This document shows, piece after piece, positions 32,736 to 46,197 of a DNA stretch of 46,465 nucleotides (positions are counted from its first letter, which is position 1; every line of letters begins with the position of its first letter). The notes under the pieces were generated by a model. It ran no database searches and had not been told where the DNA came from. It saw nothing but the letters and a program-made list of their open reading frames with translations. Made by a program: the position numbers and the translations under genes. The DNA is from Deltaproteobacteria bacterium (lineage in GTDB: Bacteria; Desulfobacterota; Syntrophobacteria; BM002). The stretch covers positions 1 to 46,465 of the forward strand of contig JAFDGZ010000041.1 of NCBI GenBank assembly GCA_019309045.1, written 5' to 3'.

Positions 32736-33746
32736 ATGAAGAGTATCATGAGAACACTGATGCTGCTAGGTCTGGTCATGGGATTATCGTTGTGTTTGAC
32801 CATTCCAGCGAGCGCCAAGATCATCCCGAGGGTAACCAACTTCGTTATTCTGGTAGATCAATCCGGCTCCATGTTCATGAACTATGACAAGGGCAACAGG
32901 ACAAAGGCCGCGCTTGCCAAGGAAACCCCGACAAGAAGATTGATCGGTCCTGAAACGTACAGTCGGGCCTTTTTCAGACCGCACTTTCAGGCCTTGCCTA
33001 CGGAAGGAAAGGTTTATCGGAATCTTACCGCCCTTGGCCCCGCCATCTCTGACACCGACAATGTGCTGCAACTCTTTACAGGGAGCAGGATGGTAGTTCT
33101 GGTCTCAGACGGCCGGGCCACGGAGGGCGGCGACCCTGTGGAGGCAGCAAAAGCCCTGTACGCCAAATACCCCAACCTCTGTATACACGTGGTCTCACTC
33201 GCTGATGAGGACAAAGGCAGAGAGGTTTTGAAAACCATAAGCGGCATGGGCAACTGCGTCTACGCTGAGGGATCTGATCTGCTGTCAGACCCCACGGCGC
33301 TGCAGAACTTTCTCAGTCAGACATTTTATGAGGAGATTCCGGATGAAGCCCTAGTGGCTATACTGCCGCCGCCGGCGAAGCCCCCGGGAACTCTGGAGAT
33401 CATCACTATTCATGCACCTTACTTTGACTTTGACAGCGCCGAAATCAACGCAGACTACATACCTGCTTTGGATCTGGTGGTTGACAAGCTGGCCAGCAAT
33501 CCGAATCTCAGCATCGTTATAGAAGGCCACACGGATTCTACTGGCCCAGCAGAGTACAACCAGAAGCTTTCTGAGCGCCGGGCCCAGGCTGTCCAGGCCT
33601 ATCTGCTCAAGAAAGGTGTGCCTGCAGACCGGATGACAGTCATAGGCTGGGGTGAGAGCAGGCCAAGAATCAGCAATCTGACCCGCGAAGGCAGAGCAGC
33701 CAATCGCAGGGTAGAAATCAGGGTGTTGGAAAGAACCGGTCAGTAA
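32736..33746 (+). CDS. Secreted von Willebrand A domain protein with OmpA C-terminus
   Basis: A 336-residue exported protein. A signal peptide (about 1-28, cleavage after ASA) is followed by a VWA domain (about 32-200) with the metal-binding MIDAS start LVDQSGSM and VVLVSDGRATEGG. A linker rich in Pro leads to an OmpA-like peptidoglycan-binding domain (about 225-333) with YFDFDSAEIN, IEGHTDSTG and NRRVEIRV. There is no lipobox, so it is probably periplasmic and anchored to murein by the OmpA part. AAAAGGAG precedes the ATG. The ligand of the VWA domain is unknown. Confidence 0.9.
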   Translation: MKSIMRTLMLLGLVMGLSLCLTIPASAKIIPRVTNFVILVDQSGSMFMNYDKGNRTKAALAKETPTRRLIGPETYSRAFFRPHFQALPTEGKVYRNLTALGPAISDTDNVLQLFTGSRMVVLVSDGRATEGGDPVEAAKALYAKYPNLCIHVVSLADEDKGREVLKTISGMGNCVYAEGSDLLSDPTALQNFLSQTFYEEIPDEALVAILPPPAKPPGTLEIITIHAPYFDFDSAEINADYIPALDLVVDKLASNPNLSIVIEGHTDSTGPAEYNQKLSERRAQAVQAYLLKKGVPADRMTVIGWGESRPRISNLTREGRAANRRVEIRVLERTGQ

Positions 33747-39597: not shown

Positions 39598-40299
39598 CTA
39601 CCAGCCACTTTTTACTGACAGACGGGCAGCCCGGCTCCCTGGCGCCTGCGACAGTTTCTTTTCCAGGGTCTCCTTCTTTTTCTTGAGCAGTGCTATAGCC
39701 TGGGCCGGTGTGTGGGAAAGAAGGTAGTATTTGAACTGCATCCGGTAGAGGAGCGCCCCGCTTACTCCCAGGGCAGTGGCATCGTATGCCTTCCAGGCGT
39801 GGCCTTTCTTGAGCATGCGAACCTCTATGGGAACATTTACTCCTTTCCACAGGACAGTGAGACGTACCACTGCCGTCTTTTTGGAAATGAGCTCTTCACC
39901 AAGATAACGTACTTGCTCGCCTCTATACTTCTGCTGCAGCTTGCTCAGATAGAAGTCACCGATAAATTTGGCAAATACCGTAGTGAATTCTTGCCGCTCC
40001 TGCAGACTGAATTGCTTCCAGTTAGCAGCAAGAACCAGGCGTGAAAATGCCCCAAAATCGAAATGGTCCTGCAGAATATGCCACAACTTCTGGCGTTGTA
40101 CGTCACTGAGATGCCCACTTTTATAGAGAGGATCTTGCAGAATTCGGATGCCTTCTTCGATGCCTCTTTTTACCGCTTGCAAAGGCTCCTCAGCTGCGGC
40201 TGCAGATGTTAGAATAGGATGGCAGACAACGAGAAACAGCAACGTTATCGTCAGCATCAGATATTTTCTGCGGCTTGCTCGCTGCAGCTGCAGTTTCAT
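39598..40299 (-). CDS. MlaC/Ttg2D-family periplasmic lipid-binding protein
   Basis: About 233 residues. A basic start and a hydrophobic stretch (residues 16-34) form a signal peptide ending near LTSAAAAEEP. The mature part matches the MlaC (toluene tolerance Ttg2) fold, including DHFDFGAFSRLVLAANWKQFSLQERQEF and FAKFIGDFYLSKLQQ. MlaC ferries phospholipids between the outer and inner membrane. ATG 40299 has GAGG 11 nt upstream; longer frames start at 40323 and 40386. The partner genes mlaD, mlaE and mlaF are not nearby. The 3' end nearly meets the convergent kinase gene (7 bp apart). Confidence 0.85.
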   Translation of the reverse strand: MKLQLQRASRRKYLMLTITLLFLVVCHPILTSAAAAEEPLQAVKRGIEEGIRILQDPLYKSGHLSDVQRQKLWHILQDHFDFGAFSRLVLAANWKQFSLQERQEFTTVFAKFIGDFYLSKLQQKYRGEQVRYLGEELISKKTAVVRLTVLWKGVNVPIEVRMLKKGHAWKAYDATALGVSGALLYRMQFKYYLLSHTPAQAIALLKKKKETLEKKLSQAPGSRAARLSVKSGW

Positions 40300-40356
40300 A
40301 GAGTCGATATCCTCTGAAAGCATCCTGGCAATCCCATAAATGTGGAGGTCAGTATC

Positions 40357-40737
40357 ATGGAGAGCTACATTCACCCGGGTGAACAACTGGTGGTGGTATT
40401 CTATGTAGTCGACATCAGGGAATCAAGCGAATTCTACCTGGGATATGGATTCGAGACAGTTCGGGACGAGGGATCCTTCATGGAATTGAAGTGGGAGGAG
40501 TCCAGGCTTTTCCTGGTGGAGCTCCCTGATGCTCCACCTCCGCCTCCCCAGCCAATTGGCAACATGCGGATAATGGTGCCAGACGTTGATGAATACTGGA
40601 GACGCGCCAGGGAAAAAAGAGCCACTATACTGCGGCCCATTGGCGACCGGGCTTACGGTTTGCGGGATTTTATCATTGCGGGTCCAGATGGCCTTGCCCT
40701 TCGCTTCGCAACCCGCCTCGAGGATGTAAGAGGTTGA
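40357..40737 (+). CDS. VOC/glyoxalase-family protein
   Basis: A protein of about 126 residues with the vicinal-oxygen-chelate fold of two beta-alpha-beta-beta-beta units: VVFYVVDIRESSEFYLGYGFE in the first and MRIMVPDVDEYWRRA to YGLRDFIIAGPDGLALRFA in the second. Relatives include glyoxalases and bleomycin-resistance-like proteins. The start ATG 40357 lies 8 nt after GGAGG; the GTG at 40342 is less likely. It diverges from mlaC with a 57-bp gap. Only few acidic or His metal ligands are visible, so activity is uncertain. Confidence 0.82.
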   Translation: MESYIHPGEQLVVVFYVVDIRESSEFYLGYGFETVRDEGSFMELKWEESRLFLVELPDAPPPPPQPIGNMRIMVPDVDEYWRRAREKRATILRPIGDRAYGLRDFIIAGPDGLALRFATRLEDVRG

Positions 40738-40855: not shown

Positions 40856-42502
40856 TCAGTCGGCAGCTGGCTCGCCGCCTATGATAAGCCTTTGACCTGG
40901 ATGGATGACAGCAGCCGCGCCAAGTTTGTTGAGCTTTTGCAGCTGTTCAACAGTGAGGCCAAACCGGCGGCCTATGGCCCAAAGGGTGTCGCCCGTGCGA
41001 ACCTGGTAGTATCTAGTTCTTTTTGCCTCAGAGCGAGCAACGGCTGCTGAAGCAGGAGGTTCCTTGGCAGCCAACTTGATAGTCACTTGAATTTCTTTGG
41101 GCTGGCCTTCAACAAGATGCAGTGAGGACGGGGTCAGTACCAGAGGAGCTTTGAATGTTTTCTCGCCAGCCTCTGGAGCCAGGGCATCGAGATCTACTGG
41201 CGCCGTTCTGACCCTCTTGGCATAACGCAACACAGACTCACCCCCACTCAGCTTGACGACGTCTGGCTCTGGCCGTATTTCGACTATTTTGAAGCCTGGC
41301 GGCGCCTTGCCCACCAGATGCGGCTCCACAACCAGCTCTTTGATAATGCGCCGTTCCAACTCTAACTTGACTCGAGATGGTGTGACCCTGACGACCCTCA
41401 ACCCCAGAGGGAGTTCAATGTTGTCTGAATCCAGCACCACCGTGTGAACACCATTGCTGATATTCCTGAGATCAACAAAAGCACTGACCTGATTCGGTTT
41501 CAGAGCGCTGACCAATCGGCGCCTGCCAGTGATCTGCACTTCAACTTTATCGGTTGAAGCTTTTTTCAGTTCTAAATTTTCAGGAAGATTGCGAAAATCT
41601 ATCGGCGTTGTCACAGTAATAAGAGAAGAAAGTTGCTTGCCAGAATAAATTCCCCACACGGTTGACACCAGAAAAAAGGTCAAGACAAAACCCGCAGTCT
41701 GAGTGAGCCATATTTTGGTCCTGCTCCTGGGCACCACCTCCTTGATAATGCCGAGCAGTAATTGATCGAGCTCCTCTTTTAACTGCAGGGGGTCTCTCGT
41801 CAACTCCACCTTCCCCCGGTGCACCACTGAGACCTGGCCGCGTTCTTCAGACACCACCAGCACCACAGCGTCGGTAAGCTCACTCAGGCCAATGGCAGCT
41901 CTGTGTCTGGTGCCGAAGCGCGAGGGTAACCCCTCTCTCTGGGTTAGAGGCAGATAAGTAGCTACTCTTACAATCCTGTTGCCCCGAACAACGATGGCGC
42001 CATCATGAACAGGACTGTGCTTGTTGAAAATGGACTCGATAATCTGGGGATCGTATCGGCCGTCTAAATGTATGCCCTCGCGCAAATGGCTTGCCAGTCT
42101 GTCTCTGTTCTGAATAACTATGAGCGCCCCTGTTCTGCTGCCGGCCAGGCGAAAAGCAGTCTCGGCGATGCTTGCCACGTCGATGCTTCTGGTTTCTTGA
42201 GGCCGCCCGAGGAAAAACCGAACCGGACTCGTCTGGATCAAAATGTCTCTGATTTCGTTTCGAAAGACAACCACTATCACCAGAACGGCAACTGTGCCGA
42301 GGCCCTGGAAAAACCAGCTGGTAAGCACCAGACCTATGGCCTGGGCAATGGCGTGAAAAATCCACAGAGACACCAGTCCCAGCGTGATTTGCAGGGCGGT
42401 GGTCCCTTTGAGCAGCAAGAAGAGCCGTTGTATGATAAAGCTGATCACCAGGATATCAATCACATCCTGCCAGCGAAAATGAAAAATAAGATCAGTGATC
42501 AT
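40856..42502 (-). CDS. cdaA: Diadenylate cyclase (CdaA-type) fused to YbbR domains and LysM
   Basis: A fusion protein of about 548 residues (numbering below is from the longer frame at 42544, 14 residues more). Three N-terminal membrane helices (about 28-95) as in CdaA are followed by a DAC domain (about 120-245) with both catalytic motifs, DGA at 181-183 and RHR at 213-215, which make c-di-AMP from two ATP. A fourth helix (280-298) leads into the periplasm, where two YbbR repeats (about 310-400 and 405-492) and a C-terminal LysM domain (512-556, YQVRTGDTLWAIGRRFG) follow. In Firmicutes CdaA and its YbbR regulator CdaR are separate neighbours. Start: ATG 42502 has AAGGAG 11 nt upstream. Confidence 0.88.
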   Translation of the reverse strand: MITDLIFHFRWQDVIDILVISFIIQRLFLLLKGTTALQITLGLVSLWIFHAIAQAIGLVLTSWFFQGLGTVAVLVIVVVFRNEIRDILIQTSPVRFFLGRPQETRSIDVASIAETAFRLAGSRTGALIVIQNRDRLASHLREGIHLDGRYDPQIIESIFNKHSPVHDGAIVVRGNRIVRVATYLPLTQREGLPSRFGTRHRAAIGLSELTDAVVLVVSEERGQVSVVHRGKVELTRDPLQLKEELDQLLLGIIKEVVPRSRTKIWLTQTAGFVLTFFLVSTVWGIYSGKQLSSLITVTTPIDFRNLPENLELKKASTDKVEVQITGRRRLVSALKPNQVSAFVDLRNISNGVHTVVLDSDNIELPLGLRVVRVTPSRVKLELERRIIKELVVEPHLVGKAPPGFKIVEIRPEPDVVKLSGGESVLRYAKRVRTAPVDLDALAPEAGEKTFKAPLVLTPSSLHLVEGQPKEIQVTIKLAAKEPPASAAVARSEAKRTRYYQVRTGDTLWAIGRRFGLTVEQLQKLNKLGAAAVIHPGQRLIIGGEPAAD

Positions 42503-42624
42503 CGGGGCAAATGCTCCTTCTGCCGAACCTGCATCAGAGTGCACCCAGGAGAAGTCCTCAGCTGCTCTCGAATAGAACAGAGTGGCTCAGATCAATCCTG
42601 CGGCCAGGCCAACTCCACGAATGA

Positions 42625-42681: not shown

Positions 42682-44427
42682 TCAAGCAGGTCTAGAAGCC
42701 CCTTGCTGGCTGCTTTCCGCGCCAGCAATAAGGGCAATCTCTGCCTCTACCTCTGAATTGAGCCTGGCCAGCTCTTCTGCCAGGTCATTCACTTGCTCTT
42801 GCCATATTTGCAGCAGTACTTCTCTCAGGGCAGCCATCCTCTTCTGAGCCTGCTTATGCAGCAGATTCCTGTATCGCCTGTAGAAGCGATAAGCAACAAT
42901 AAGATTGAGCAGCAGGTAACTTCCTAGAGCTGCCAGACCCTTGCTGCTGAAAAGAACGTGAACCGTAGACAGCACCAGCTGCATAAAACTTTTGAGCCCG
43001 GGTGCCTCCAGCACCTGCTGCCAGGAAGCTTCAGGACCAATGGCAAAAAGAAATGCCGCCAAAAGAAAACCATAGCCTATAAACTGTATCGCCTTGAAAC
43101 CTCTGTAGGTCGGCTGCCAAGCCTCGGTTGCCGCTGCTGCCGCGGCCCTGGCAAAACGATTTTCCAGATTCCTGGCCACCCTGTCTGGCTCCAGAATCTG
43201 CTGTACTCTGTGGCGCAGGGATTCGGGCATACTGTGCCGCAACAGGCTATGGTCCATCCGTGCCGCCAGCCACACCAGCCTGTCTCTAAAGACAGTGCTG
43301 ACCTCCTCAGGAGGTCTAAACTGCAAGGTAGCCGGGGCAGCAGCCCTCTTGTCGGCAAACCTTCTATGCCAGCTCTCGAGGAGTACGCCAAGGGCATATC
43401 CCGGTCCCACCAGCACAGAGGGCTCGCCAGCGAGCATAAAAACATTCGGGCTGTTACCCGTGCTCAGCCAGTGATCGATTGCTTGCGCTCCCGCCTGCAT
43501 CCATTGCGCTCGTTGTTCTTCGACATCGGTCGAAGCTGCGGCCACTATTTGGGAGAACCGTGTCAGCTGCTTTATTTCTTTTTCGAGTATTGTGCGGAAG
43601 TGGTCAATTTCCACATCTAGATTTGCCGTTTTGATCGCGGAAACCTGCTTGAAATCTCGTTGTTGGAAGAGATACCTCCTGAAGGACGGAAATTGATTCC
43701 AGGATGCCACTTCAGCCGAGGTAAACGCTTGCAGAGCTGAAACAAGGTAGAGAAGAGGATCACCAATGCCATGGTCGTGTATGTGTCTCTGGAAGGTTCG
43801 CCCTACGAGATCCAGCTGTTGATAAGCCTCCTGCTCGCTCTTACCATCGAACAGCATGTCAATCTTGTTCAGGACAAAGACAAAATTCTGCTCTGCTTTG
43901 GCAACTGTCTGCAAGAACTCATAGAACCTGCCGTCGGCATACTTTTCGGGTGAGGTCACCCAGACCAGCACATCCAGGTACTCGAGAAAACCAGCTACCC
44001 GTTCACGATGTTCCCCGAGAAGGCTGTCAAAGTCAGGAAGGTCACAGAGAAGAACGTGCTGGATGACATCTGCATCATGACTGATCTCCAGCCATGGAAT
44101 ACTTGCCTGTTGCAGGGCAGTGGGAACTTGAACATTCCGGTGTCGATAAAGGAGTACTTTGTCCGTATGGGGGCGGCGATGGCTGGTGGAGGCAATTTGC
44201 TCACCGGCAAGTGCGTTCATCAGTGTGGATTTGCCCACCCCCGTACCACCGAGAAGACCTATCATCAGAAAGCTTGTCTCGATGGAATCCAGTTTGCCGG
44301 CACATTTTTCCAGTGCGGCGCTGATCTGCTCCAGTTCGGTGGCAGAGAAAGAAAACAACAGATCCTGCTCCAGAAGGGAGCGGATCCTGTCTATTTCACC
44401 ACGCAGCAATGGTAGCGTTCGCTTCAT
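42682..44427 (-). CDS. Membrane-associated dynamin-like GTPase, second of pair
   Basis: A 581-residue P-loop GTPase. G1 is GGTGVGKST (60-68), G3 reads DLPD (129-132) instead of DxxG, G4 is NKID (187-190). The motif SPEKYAD follows G3 by about 30 residues. The middle (about 260-440) is helical, and two hydrophobic helices (about 455-475 and 500-525) suggest membrane insertion, then a coiled coil rich in Glu and Gln to the end. The layout resembles bacterial dynamin-like proteins, which often act in tandem pairs. It starts 39 bp after its paralogue. I cannot assign a precise family or substrate. Confidence 0.75.
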   Translation of the reverse strand: MKRTLPLLRGEIDRIRSLLEQDLLFSFSATELEQISAALEKCAGKLDSIETSFLMIGLLGGTGVGKSTLMNALAGEQIASTSHRRPHTDKVLLYRHRNVQVPTALQQASIPWLEISHDADVIQHVLLCDLPDFDSLLGEHRERVAGFLEYLDVLVWVTSPEKYADGRFYEFLQTVAKAEQNFVFVLNKIDMLFDGKSEQEAYQQLDLVGRTFQRHIHDHGIGDPLLYLVSALQAFTSAEVASWNQFPSFRRYLFQQRDFKQVSAIKTANLDVEIDHFRTILEKEIKQLTRFSQIVAAASTDVEEQRAQWMQAGAQAIDHWLSTGNSPNVFMLAGEPSVLVGPGYALGVLLESWHRRFADKRAAAPATLQFRPPEEVSTVFRDRLVWLAARMDHSLLRHSMPESLRHRVQQILEPDRVARNLENRFARAAAAAATEAWQPTYRGFKAIQFIGYGFLLAAFLFAIGPEASWQQVLEAPGLKSFMQLVLSTVHVLFSSKGLAALGSYLLLNLIVAYRFYRRYRNLLHKQAQKRMAALREVLLQIWQEQVNDLAEELARLNSEVEAEIALIAGAESSQQGASRPA

Positions 44428-44466: not shown

Positions 44467-46197
44467 TCAAGTTATGGAATCCTCGAACTGCTGGCATAGC
44501 TCCTCTAGTTTATAGGTCAGCTCATTTGCAGTCATCAGTCTTTGCAAGCTCTGCCGGTAAAGATCGCGCTGGTGCTGCAGTACAGACAACAGTCCCTGCT
44601 CGTACCGTTTCGCCAGTTTGCGGCCAACTCGCTGGATCTCATGATAGGCAAAGAGCTCCACTGCACCTTTCGTCAAGAAAGGAGCCACTGCAGTATCGAC
44701 GGCTGCATCCACAAGGGTAAGACCGCCACCAACAGCCGCCTCGAAAGAGAGCAGCAGCAGCCCCCAGAGCACAGAAGTGGAATAGATACCCAGCTCCTTT
44801 TCTTTCGAGATCCCCCGGGAAATCTTCTTGAAGTGATCCTCGAGCCACTGAATGAGTTGATCTTGCTGCTCTGTGAGACGCTGTTTGATTTCCTCGTCCG
44901 TGAGCAACACCGCAGGATCCCGCAGTGCCCTGAAAAGCGGTGCTGTAGCTTCACCGGGAGACAGCTGTTCGAGTACAGCACGATTGAATTGCTCCACTGC
45001 ACTGTGCACTACTGCCTGGTCCAGTTTACGCCTGATTCTGAGCAGAGCTTCGTCATGTACTTTTGCCTCGTTCTCCCGGCGAAATCCCAACAGCCTCAAC
45101 GGTGTCAGCAATAGTTCCCTGATGAAGCGGCGCGGCTTGGCGAGCACATCATACCTGGTGTAGAGCTGCCGTATTTCTCTCTGCAGATATTCCCGACTGA
45201 TAGAGCTAAAGTGTTCTTTCTGCCTGGCAACTAGATCGCGGGCAATCTGCTCATACAAGGCGTCCAGACGGCTGAGCCATTTCTGGCAGGCGTCGTTTTC
45301 CTGCGCCAAGAGTGCTAGCAAGGCTCGTATACGGTTCACCAGATCCTGCAGCCTCTCTGCGCTCTGCTTCCTGGTGAAATCAGCTAACCGCTCCCCGCTG
45401 AAATCAGCCAGCAGGCTCTGCCGAAAAGCCCGGAACTCGGGTTCGGCCGCGATACTCTGCCAGGGCTGGGAGGGAACATAGGGAATGAGCCACAGTCTTT
45501 CTCCGGCTATTGACACGCCGCTTCGTGCCAGCAATTGCAGTACTTCTTTCCTGCCGAGCCGGCCATCTGCTTTATTGACGAGCACGTAGCAGGGCTTGTT
45601 GTCGGCTATGGTCTTCAACAGCGACTTATAGGGTATTTCGTCCGCATATTTTTCCTGACTGCTCACAAAGAGCACTACATCAGCCAACAGATAAAGCTGG
45701 CTGGCAAAGGCGCGGTTCTCCACCTCCACACTGTCCAGATCAGGAGTGTCCACCACGAGAAAGGGTAAGTGGGGTTGTTGTTCGTATTCCACAACAACAA
45801 GCTGGCCTGGGCGTCCTGACACAGGCCTTTGCTTTATACTTTCATAGGGTTCCCTGTCTATCTGCACAGCAGGAAATGGAAAATCTCTGTCAATTCGAGC
45901 TCCCCGGGGGGCCCATACCACCGGTCCTTTGGTCTTTGGCCGCTCAACTCCCGTATCGCTCAGCAATTCGCCCAGCAGGGCGTTGAACAAAGTAGATTTT
46001 CCTGTACCGGTGCCCCCGAGGAACACAGACCACAGGAGAGGATTGGACTGTTTGTAATAGTAAACTCTCAATCTTTCGCTGAGCTCGGCCGCTGACTCTT
46101 GAAGGTCGGCCGCCCTGATGCTGAGACCGGGGCACTGGATAGAGCCGGCAAGGTCTCTCGTCAATTCAAGCTGCCCCCCCGAGGTTTGCTCGAACAT
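44467..46197 (-). CDS. Membrane-associated dynamin-like GTPase, first of pair
   Basis: A 576-residue relative of the next gene. G1 is GGTGTGKST (near 62), G3 reads DTPDLDS with Asp in place of the usual Gly, the motif SQEKYAD follows, and G4 is NKAD. The helical middle part is followed by a hydrophobic stretch around 475-515 (STSVLWGLLLLSFEAAVGG) that may enter the membrane, and a helical C-terminus. The two proteins clearly share the GTPase core but diverge elsewhere, as in hetero-oligomeric dynamin pairs. No clear ribosome site is seen. A TTGACA lies upstream on the same strand (46323-46318) but lacks a good -10 box. Confidence 0.75.
   Translation of the reverse strand: MFEQTSGGQLELTRDLAGSIQCPGLSIRAADLQESAAELSERLRVYYYKQSNPLLWSVFLGGTGTGKSTLFNALLGELLSDTGVERPKTKGPVVWAPRGARIDRDFPFPAVQIDREPYESIKQRPVSGRPGQLVVVEYEQQPHLPFLVVDTPDLDSVEVENRAFASQLYLLADVVLFVSSQEKYADEIPYKSLLKTIADNKPCYVLVNKADGRLGRKEVLQLLARSGVSIAGERLWLIPYVPSQPWQSIAAEPEFRAFRQSLLADFSGERLADFTRKQSAERLQDLVNRIRALLALLAQENDACQKWLSRLDALYEQIARDLVARQKEHFSSISREYLQREIRQLYTRYDVLAKPRRFIRELLLTPLRLLGFRRENEAKVHDEALLRIRRKLDQAVVHSAVEQFNRAVLEQLSPGEATAPLFRALRDPAVLLTDEEIKQRLTEQQDQLIQWLEDHFKKISRGISKEKELGIYSTSVLWGLLLLSFEAAVGGGLTLVDAAVDTAVAPFLTKGAVELFAYHEIQRVGRKLAKRYEQGLLSVLQHQRDLYRQSLQRLMTANELTYKLEELCQQFEDSIT

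Follow-up and report, generated by a model that had tools for sequence, protein, structure and literature searches.

A CdaA-type diadenylate cyclase carrying YbbR repeats and a LysM domain in one polypeptide: a candidate murein-tethered c-di-AMP synthase in Desulfobacterota

We describe a CdaA-type c-di-AMP synthase that combines, in one polypeptide, the cyclase, a built-in CdaR-like YbbR arm and a putative murein-binding LysM domain. The architecture and topology of this protein are well supported, and it is best read as a murein-tethered synthase whose cytoplasmic cyclase may be tuned or positioned by contact with the wall; the sensing part of this reading is what we infer, and the specific proposal that wall contact sets cyclase activity is, in our judgment, evenly balanced between being right and wrong. 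The DNA analyzed, hereafter the window, is the entire 46,465-nucleotide contig C41 of a 3.9-Mb genome (G000), and the gene lies 3.9 kb from the nearer contig end.

In the list of open frames of the window, the minus-strand frame 40856..42544 is a single uninterrupted ORF, with its stop end at 40856. The GTG at 42544 is an alternative start that lies further upstream and would yield a longer protein. Because the proteins of relatives begin at Met15 of this longer frame (ATG 42502) and AGAAGGAG stands upstream of that ATG, aligned sequences make 40856..42502 (minus strand, 548 amino acids) the probable gene; residue numbers of domains, helices, and motifs are nevertheless given for the frame 40856..42544. 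An earlier note, made from the letters alone, had read the protein as CdaA-like helices, DAC, a further helix, two YbbR repeats, and LysM, and this content and order were borne out by Pfam matches that all exceed the curated cut-offs. CdaA_N (25.1 bits compared to a cut-off of 23.8; 2e-5) matches ahead of DAC and marks the three N-terminal membrane helices (42263..42472, minus). The DAC domain itself (residues 130-245; 41810..42157, minus) scores 129.5 bits against a cut-off of 27 (6.2e-38), with its place confirmed by a six-frame search, and inspection found both of its active-site motifs intact, as the note had claimed: DGA at residues 181-183 (as HDGA; 41996-42004, minus) and RHR at residues 213-215 (as GTRHR; 41900-41908, minus). 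YbbR matches in two stretches (3e-21), both after the fourth membrane helix, and the genome search places repeat 1 at 41360..41614 (minus; 6.8e-11) and repeat 2 at 41078..41329 (minus; 1.2e-10). A variable linker of about 20 residues (41009..41068, minus) leads to the LysM domain (residues 513-555; 40880..41008, minus), for which the note had proposed a domain search and which was recovered at 53.5 bits compared to a cut-off of 20.9 (2.4e-14). Among solved wall enzymes, LytE 8i2e (4e-20) and the Thermus entries 4uz2/4uz3 (1.5e-15) match this domain with their LysM parts. The NCBIfam CdaA equivalog TIGR00159 covers residues 17-259 with 179.7 bits, below its cut-off of 188.8, and for this reason we call the protein CdaA-type rather than a strict CdaA.

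Hydropathy peaks define four membrane segments, TM1 (27-45), TM2 (55-73), TM3 (76-94), and TM4 (278-296), and an AlphaFold2 model of low overall confidence (pLDDT 59, shallow alignment) has helices at 25-44, 48-70, 73-93, and 275-302. Positive charge is located after TM3 and before TM4; the DAC domain is therefore predicted to be cytoplasmic and the YbbR-LysM part to lie outside, with TM4 (41639..41713, minus) running from inside to outside. Hydropathy and flanking charge thus predict a periplasmic LysM, which the earlier note had placed outside, and the low-confidence model agrees on the helices. In that model, repeat 2 reaches a pLDDT of about 80-90 over most of its length, and the beta-alpha-alpha-beta order of LysM elements is correct in both structure models, though at a pLDDT of only about 50-60.

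The four-part fusion also occurs in two genomes of the same family, G395 and G397, in proteins with 57% identity over the full length, and a fourth LysM fusion, 48% identical to the window protein, is found in another family (G077). Pfam confirmed DAC, YbbR, and LysM in all three proteins, and their DGA and RHR motifs are intact. The arrangement, for which the earlier note had suggested a survey across the phylum, is real but rare. These copies also bear on the worry, raised in the same note, that a frameshift or an assembly join had fused two genes. That the window genome is a 211-contig assembly speaks for such an error, but the gene is one unbroken frame within a contig, and the fusion recurs, identically placed, in independent assemblies, among them a 3.6-Mb single contig (G397); we regard an error as excluded in practice.

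How the fusion relates to its surroundings can be seen from 140 distinct DAC-YbbR frames, which were sampled as top-scoring matches of the window protein rather than as a census and come nearly all from this phylum: LysM is present in four, an OmpA domain in one, and neither in 135. Judged from these frames, the DAC-YbbR core is common in the phylum, and LysM is the added part. Frames that looked long enough for extra C-terminal domains (G202, G098, G056, G387, G271, and others) have no added domain, and a plasmid search yielded nothing but ordinary cyclases, all of which matched less than 80% of the query. No CdaA-type cyclase other than the LysM form is present in the window genome. Besides the LysM cyclase, G395 and G397 each encode another DAC-YbbR protein that lacks LysM, and in G077 the LysM cyclase coexists with an ordinary cdaA and a separate ybbR. 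The latter pair raised the suspicion of a contaminant contig, but composition argues against it: the tetranucleotide profile of the fusion contig correlates at r 0.92 with G077's own contig, at 0.89-0.92 with relatives, and at 0.50 with the window. As the profile matches G077, transfer or long residence is likelier than contamination. In the tree, the LysM copies stand beside, and not inside, the LysM-free group whose genes precede an Rrf2-like gene, and the LysM-free protein of G405, a close relative, groups among the LysM copies. A single clade of the four LysM proteins was rejected (AU p = 0.019), with the caveat that L005 is a long branch. LysM may thus have been gained once, with a later loss, or gained several times. 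Small LysM proteins with a hydrophobic N-terminal part are encoded at L080:416-967 (G000:C210) and L079:2955-3545 (G395:C595); their LysM closely resembles the one in the fused cyclase, and they are possible domain donors. In G398:C1 (L056, near 2980567-2983507) and G399:C137, of the same family, two different DAC-YbbR genes stand in tandem, and these genomes therefore have three CdaA-type cyclases.

Conservation differs along the protein. Between the window protein and that of G397, identity is 64% in DAC and 55% in LysM, compared to 39% in the second YbbR repeat and 31% in the linker; synonymous sites are saturated in LysM, linker, and second repeat for this pair. For G395 and G397, LysM has a dN/dS of 0.34, a value to which 44 codons lend little power. 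With that limit, the alignments suggest that the LysM tail is being kept. That it is instead a neutral C-terminal acquisition without function would agree with its presence in only four of the distinct frames and with the LysM-free relative in G405. Yet the domain persists in proteins whose overall identity is only 57%, where it is better conserved than the linker, its dN/dS is as given above, and the same scaffold has elsewhere gained a second type of murein-binding domain; we therefore think a functionless tail very improbable.

This second domain is found in G074 (L109:1442-3187, G074:C5), where a DAC-YbbR-YbbR protein ends in an OmpA domain (59.5 bits) within one 582-residue frame on a 396-kb contig. 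In its DAC, RHT replaces RHR, and the OmpA fusion is not a family trait around G074 but unique to that one genome. In nine genomes, a LysM gene lies directly downstream of DAC-YbbR, and in eight of them (G362, G202, G098, G063, G287, G153, G246, and G025) it encodes a LysM2-NlpC/P60 murein peptidase on the same strand as DAC-YbbR (L106:1680-2816, L126:348-1505, L142:308-1405, L031:2967-4025, L105:2318-3424, L127:2957-4048, L148:3005-4081, and L149:311-1444). These eight, counted with f84-type neighbors left out, span three families (f104, f29, and f50) and probably represent one ancestral arrangement. In G105:C73 (L114:2454-3128), the gene immediately after DAC-YbbR lies in another frame and encodes a helix and a coiled coil with LysM at the C-terminal end; it could represent a split fusion or a stage before fusion. 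Taken at face value, the gene arrangements point to at least four separate ways in which a DAC-YbbR cyclase is joined to wall binding. A wider generalization, in which the CdaA-YbbR cyclase of this phylum would be a general wall-state sensor repeatedly wired to murein (by fused LysM, fused OmpA, or adjacent LysM-NlpC/P60) and the window protein a one-component murein-to-c-di-AMP receptor, is put forward tentatively, as something that we would sooner doubt than assert.

The window gene adjoins no peptidase; its neighbors are GTPases, a glyoxalase-like gene, and MlaC. Two dynamin-like GTPases lie upstream on the same strand (42682-44427 and 44467-46197, minus), and an MlaC-like gene (39598-40386, minus) is nearby, with the glyoxalase-like gene between on the opposite strand. 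In G395 and G397, the LysM cyclase gene faces a convergent gene with an OmpA domain (L072:5975-7486), and a 51% identical relative of this OmpA gene is found in the window 7 kb from the cyclase gene (32736-33746, plus). Elsewhere, the window genome encodes a second cyclase of the DacZ type (DacZ_P plus DAC; L077:4659-5630, G000:C112), a type best known from archaea. A Pfam search of this genome found no other YbbR protein, so that the fused YbbR is its only CdaR candidate. Eleven RCK_C (TrkA_C) matches mark possible c-di-AMP targets, a 322-residue DHH protein may hydrolyze c-di-AMP or pApA, and no c-di-AMP riboswitch was found in the window genome.

On the wall-contact reading, the three N-terminal helices would fix the cyclase to the membrane's inner face, and TM4 would carry the two YbbR repeats and LysM into the periplasm. 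There, contact of LysM with murein, either glycan strands or fragments, would anchor the periplasmic arm. Depending on whether this contact is present, absent, or displaced, the YbbR arm might be held or strained, and its state might pass through TM4 to the cyclase helices, altering the pairing or oligomerization of DAC and with it the rate of c-di-AMP synthesis; the product would then act on its usual targets, of which the genome encodes RCK_C proteins. External CdaR, a YbbR protein, touches CdaA through membrane segments (PMC10243994) and can raise or lower its activity, and active CdaA requires higher oligomers (PMC8573169), both of which favor such a route.

Murein sensing that sets c-di-AMP synthesis is compatible with all findings and may be considered strengthened by the OmpA fusion and the LysM-peptidase neighbors. 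The recurrence of the same four-part fusion with intact motifs, the conservation of LysM over linker and second YbbR repeat, the lack of any other YbbR protein in the window genome, the RCK_C matches, and the parallel murein links in G074, in the eight peptidase genomes, and in G105 all count for it. Against it, LysM can function purely as an anchor, and other polymers of GlcNAc are also bound by such domains; the four LysM proteins do not form one clade; and, since 135 of the 140 frames have neither LysM nor OmpA, wall contact is dispensable for the core function. The main rival is a tether without sensing, in which LysM would hold the cyclase at wall sites such as the septum or growth sites and produce c-di-AMP locally, with no signal across the membrane. 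Sensing and tethering would be expected to leave the same traces in sequences, and we give this rival substantial weight, though clearly less than the wall-tuned cyclase. A single LysM on a short variable linker has the look of a flexible anchor, and OmpA, which the G074 relative carries, is a classic example of an anchor; in G395, G397, and G077, the LysM cyclase comes in addition to a LysM-free CdaA, as would suit a spatially specialized paralogue. However, LysM is joined in the same chain to the YbbR arm, the supposed regulator of CdaA, and a mere tether leaves the wall-peptidase genes downstream in other families unexplained.

Those peptidase genes would, in turn, suit a flow in the outward direction, with the state of the cyclase controlling the periplasmic arm, which would position or activate wall enzymes and make LysM-YbbR an output. 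An NlpC peptidase gene of Corynebacterium is under the control of a c-di-AMP riboswitch (PMC9960051). But the window gene has no such peptidase beside it and its genome no detected c-di-AMP riboswitch, and we consider outward flow unlikely, only a little less so than a neutral tail.

If the wall-contact reading is correct, it would suggest a way in which wall state could be translated into c-di-AMP levels. The presence of a cyclase and a wall-binding domain in one natural chain makes murein a candidate signal for CdaA; with all parts in one polypeptide, the window protein would allow such a signal to be examined. It is mainly in Firmicutes that c-di-AMP synthesis is known to be linked to the wall; the OmpA fusion and the adjacent LysM peptidase genes suggest such a link in the diderm members of this phylum, too. 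The literature names as a gap both the role of CdaR's external YbbR part and the route by which outside signals reach CdaA (PMC10243994). The CdaA-YbbR fusion as such is not new, being frequent in this phylum and reported in some streptococci (PMC10243994). As for LysM, the earlier note knew of no description of such a fusion, and our text searches, which covered mainly open-access papers, likewise gave no paper on a diadenylate cyclase/CdaA-LysM fusion.

Compared to CdaA (DacA) and CdaR of the Firmicutes, encoded in the cdaA-cdaR-glmM operon, the window protein has the same three N-terminal helices, cytoplasmic DAC with DGA and RHR, and external YbbR part, but it is one chain where theirs are two, LysM is added, and GlmM is not among the genes adjoining it; its two YbbR repeats compare to three or four in lactic acid bacteria. 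The CdaA-CdaR fusions of streptococci likewise unite cyclase and YbbR repeats in one polypeptide, but they belong to another phylum, and no LysM is mentioned for them (PMC10243994). The LysM-free DAC-YbbR proteins of the phylum, including the paralogues in G395 and G397, share core and topology and are 57-60% identical within the family, but end soon after the second YbbR; in G395, G397, G135, and others, the gene of the LysM-free paralogue precedes a regulator gene that we read as Rrf2-like from its sequence rather than from a profile match. The DAC-YbbR-OmpA protein of G074 has the same core and a peptidoglycan-binding type of domain at its C-terminus, but with OmpA instead of LysM, RHT for RHR, and in a single genome. 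Finally, PASTA-domain Ser/Thr kinases such as PrkC combine an intracellular signaling enzyme, a membrane passage, and wall-binding domains outside. They resemble the window protein in this layout by analogy only, since enzyme and binding domain are unrelated and their signal is phosphorylation, not c-di-AMP.
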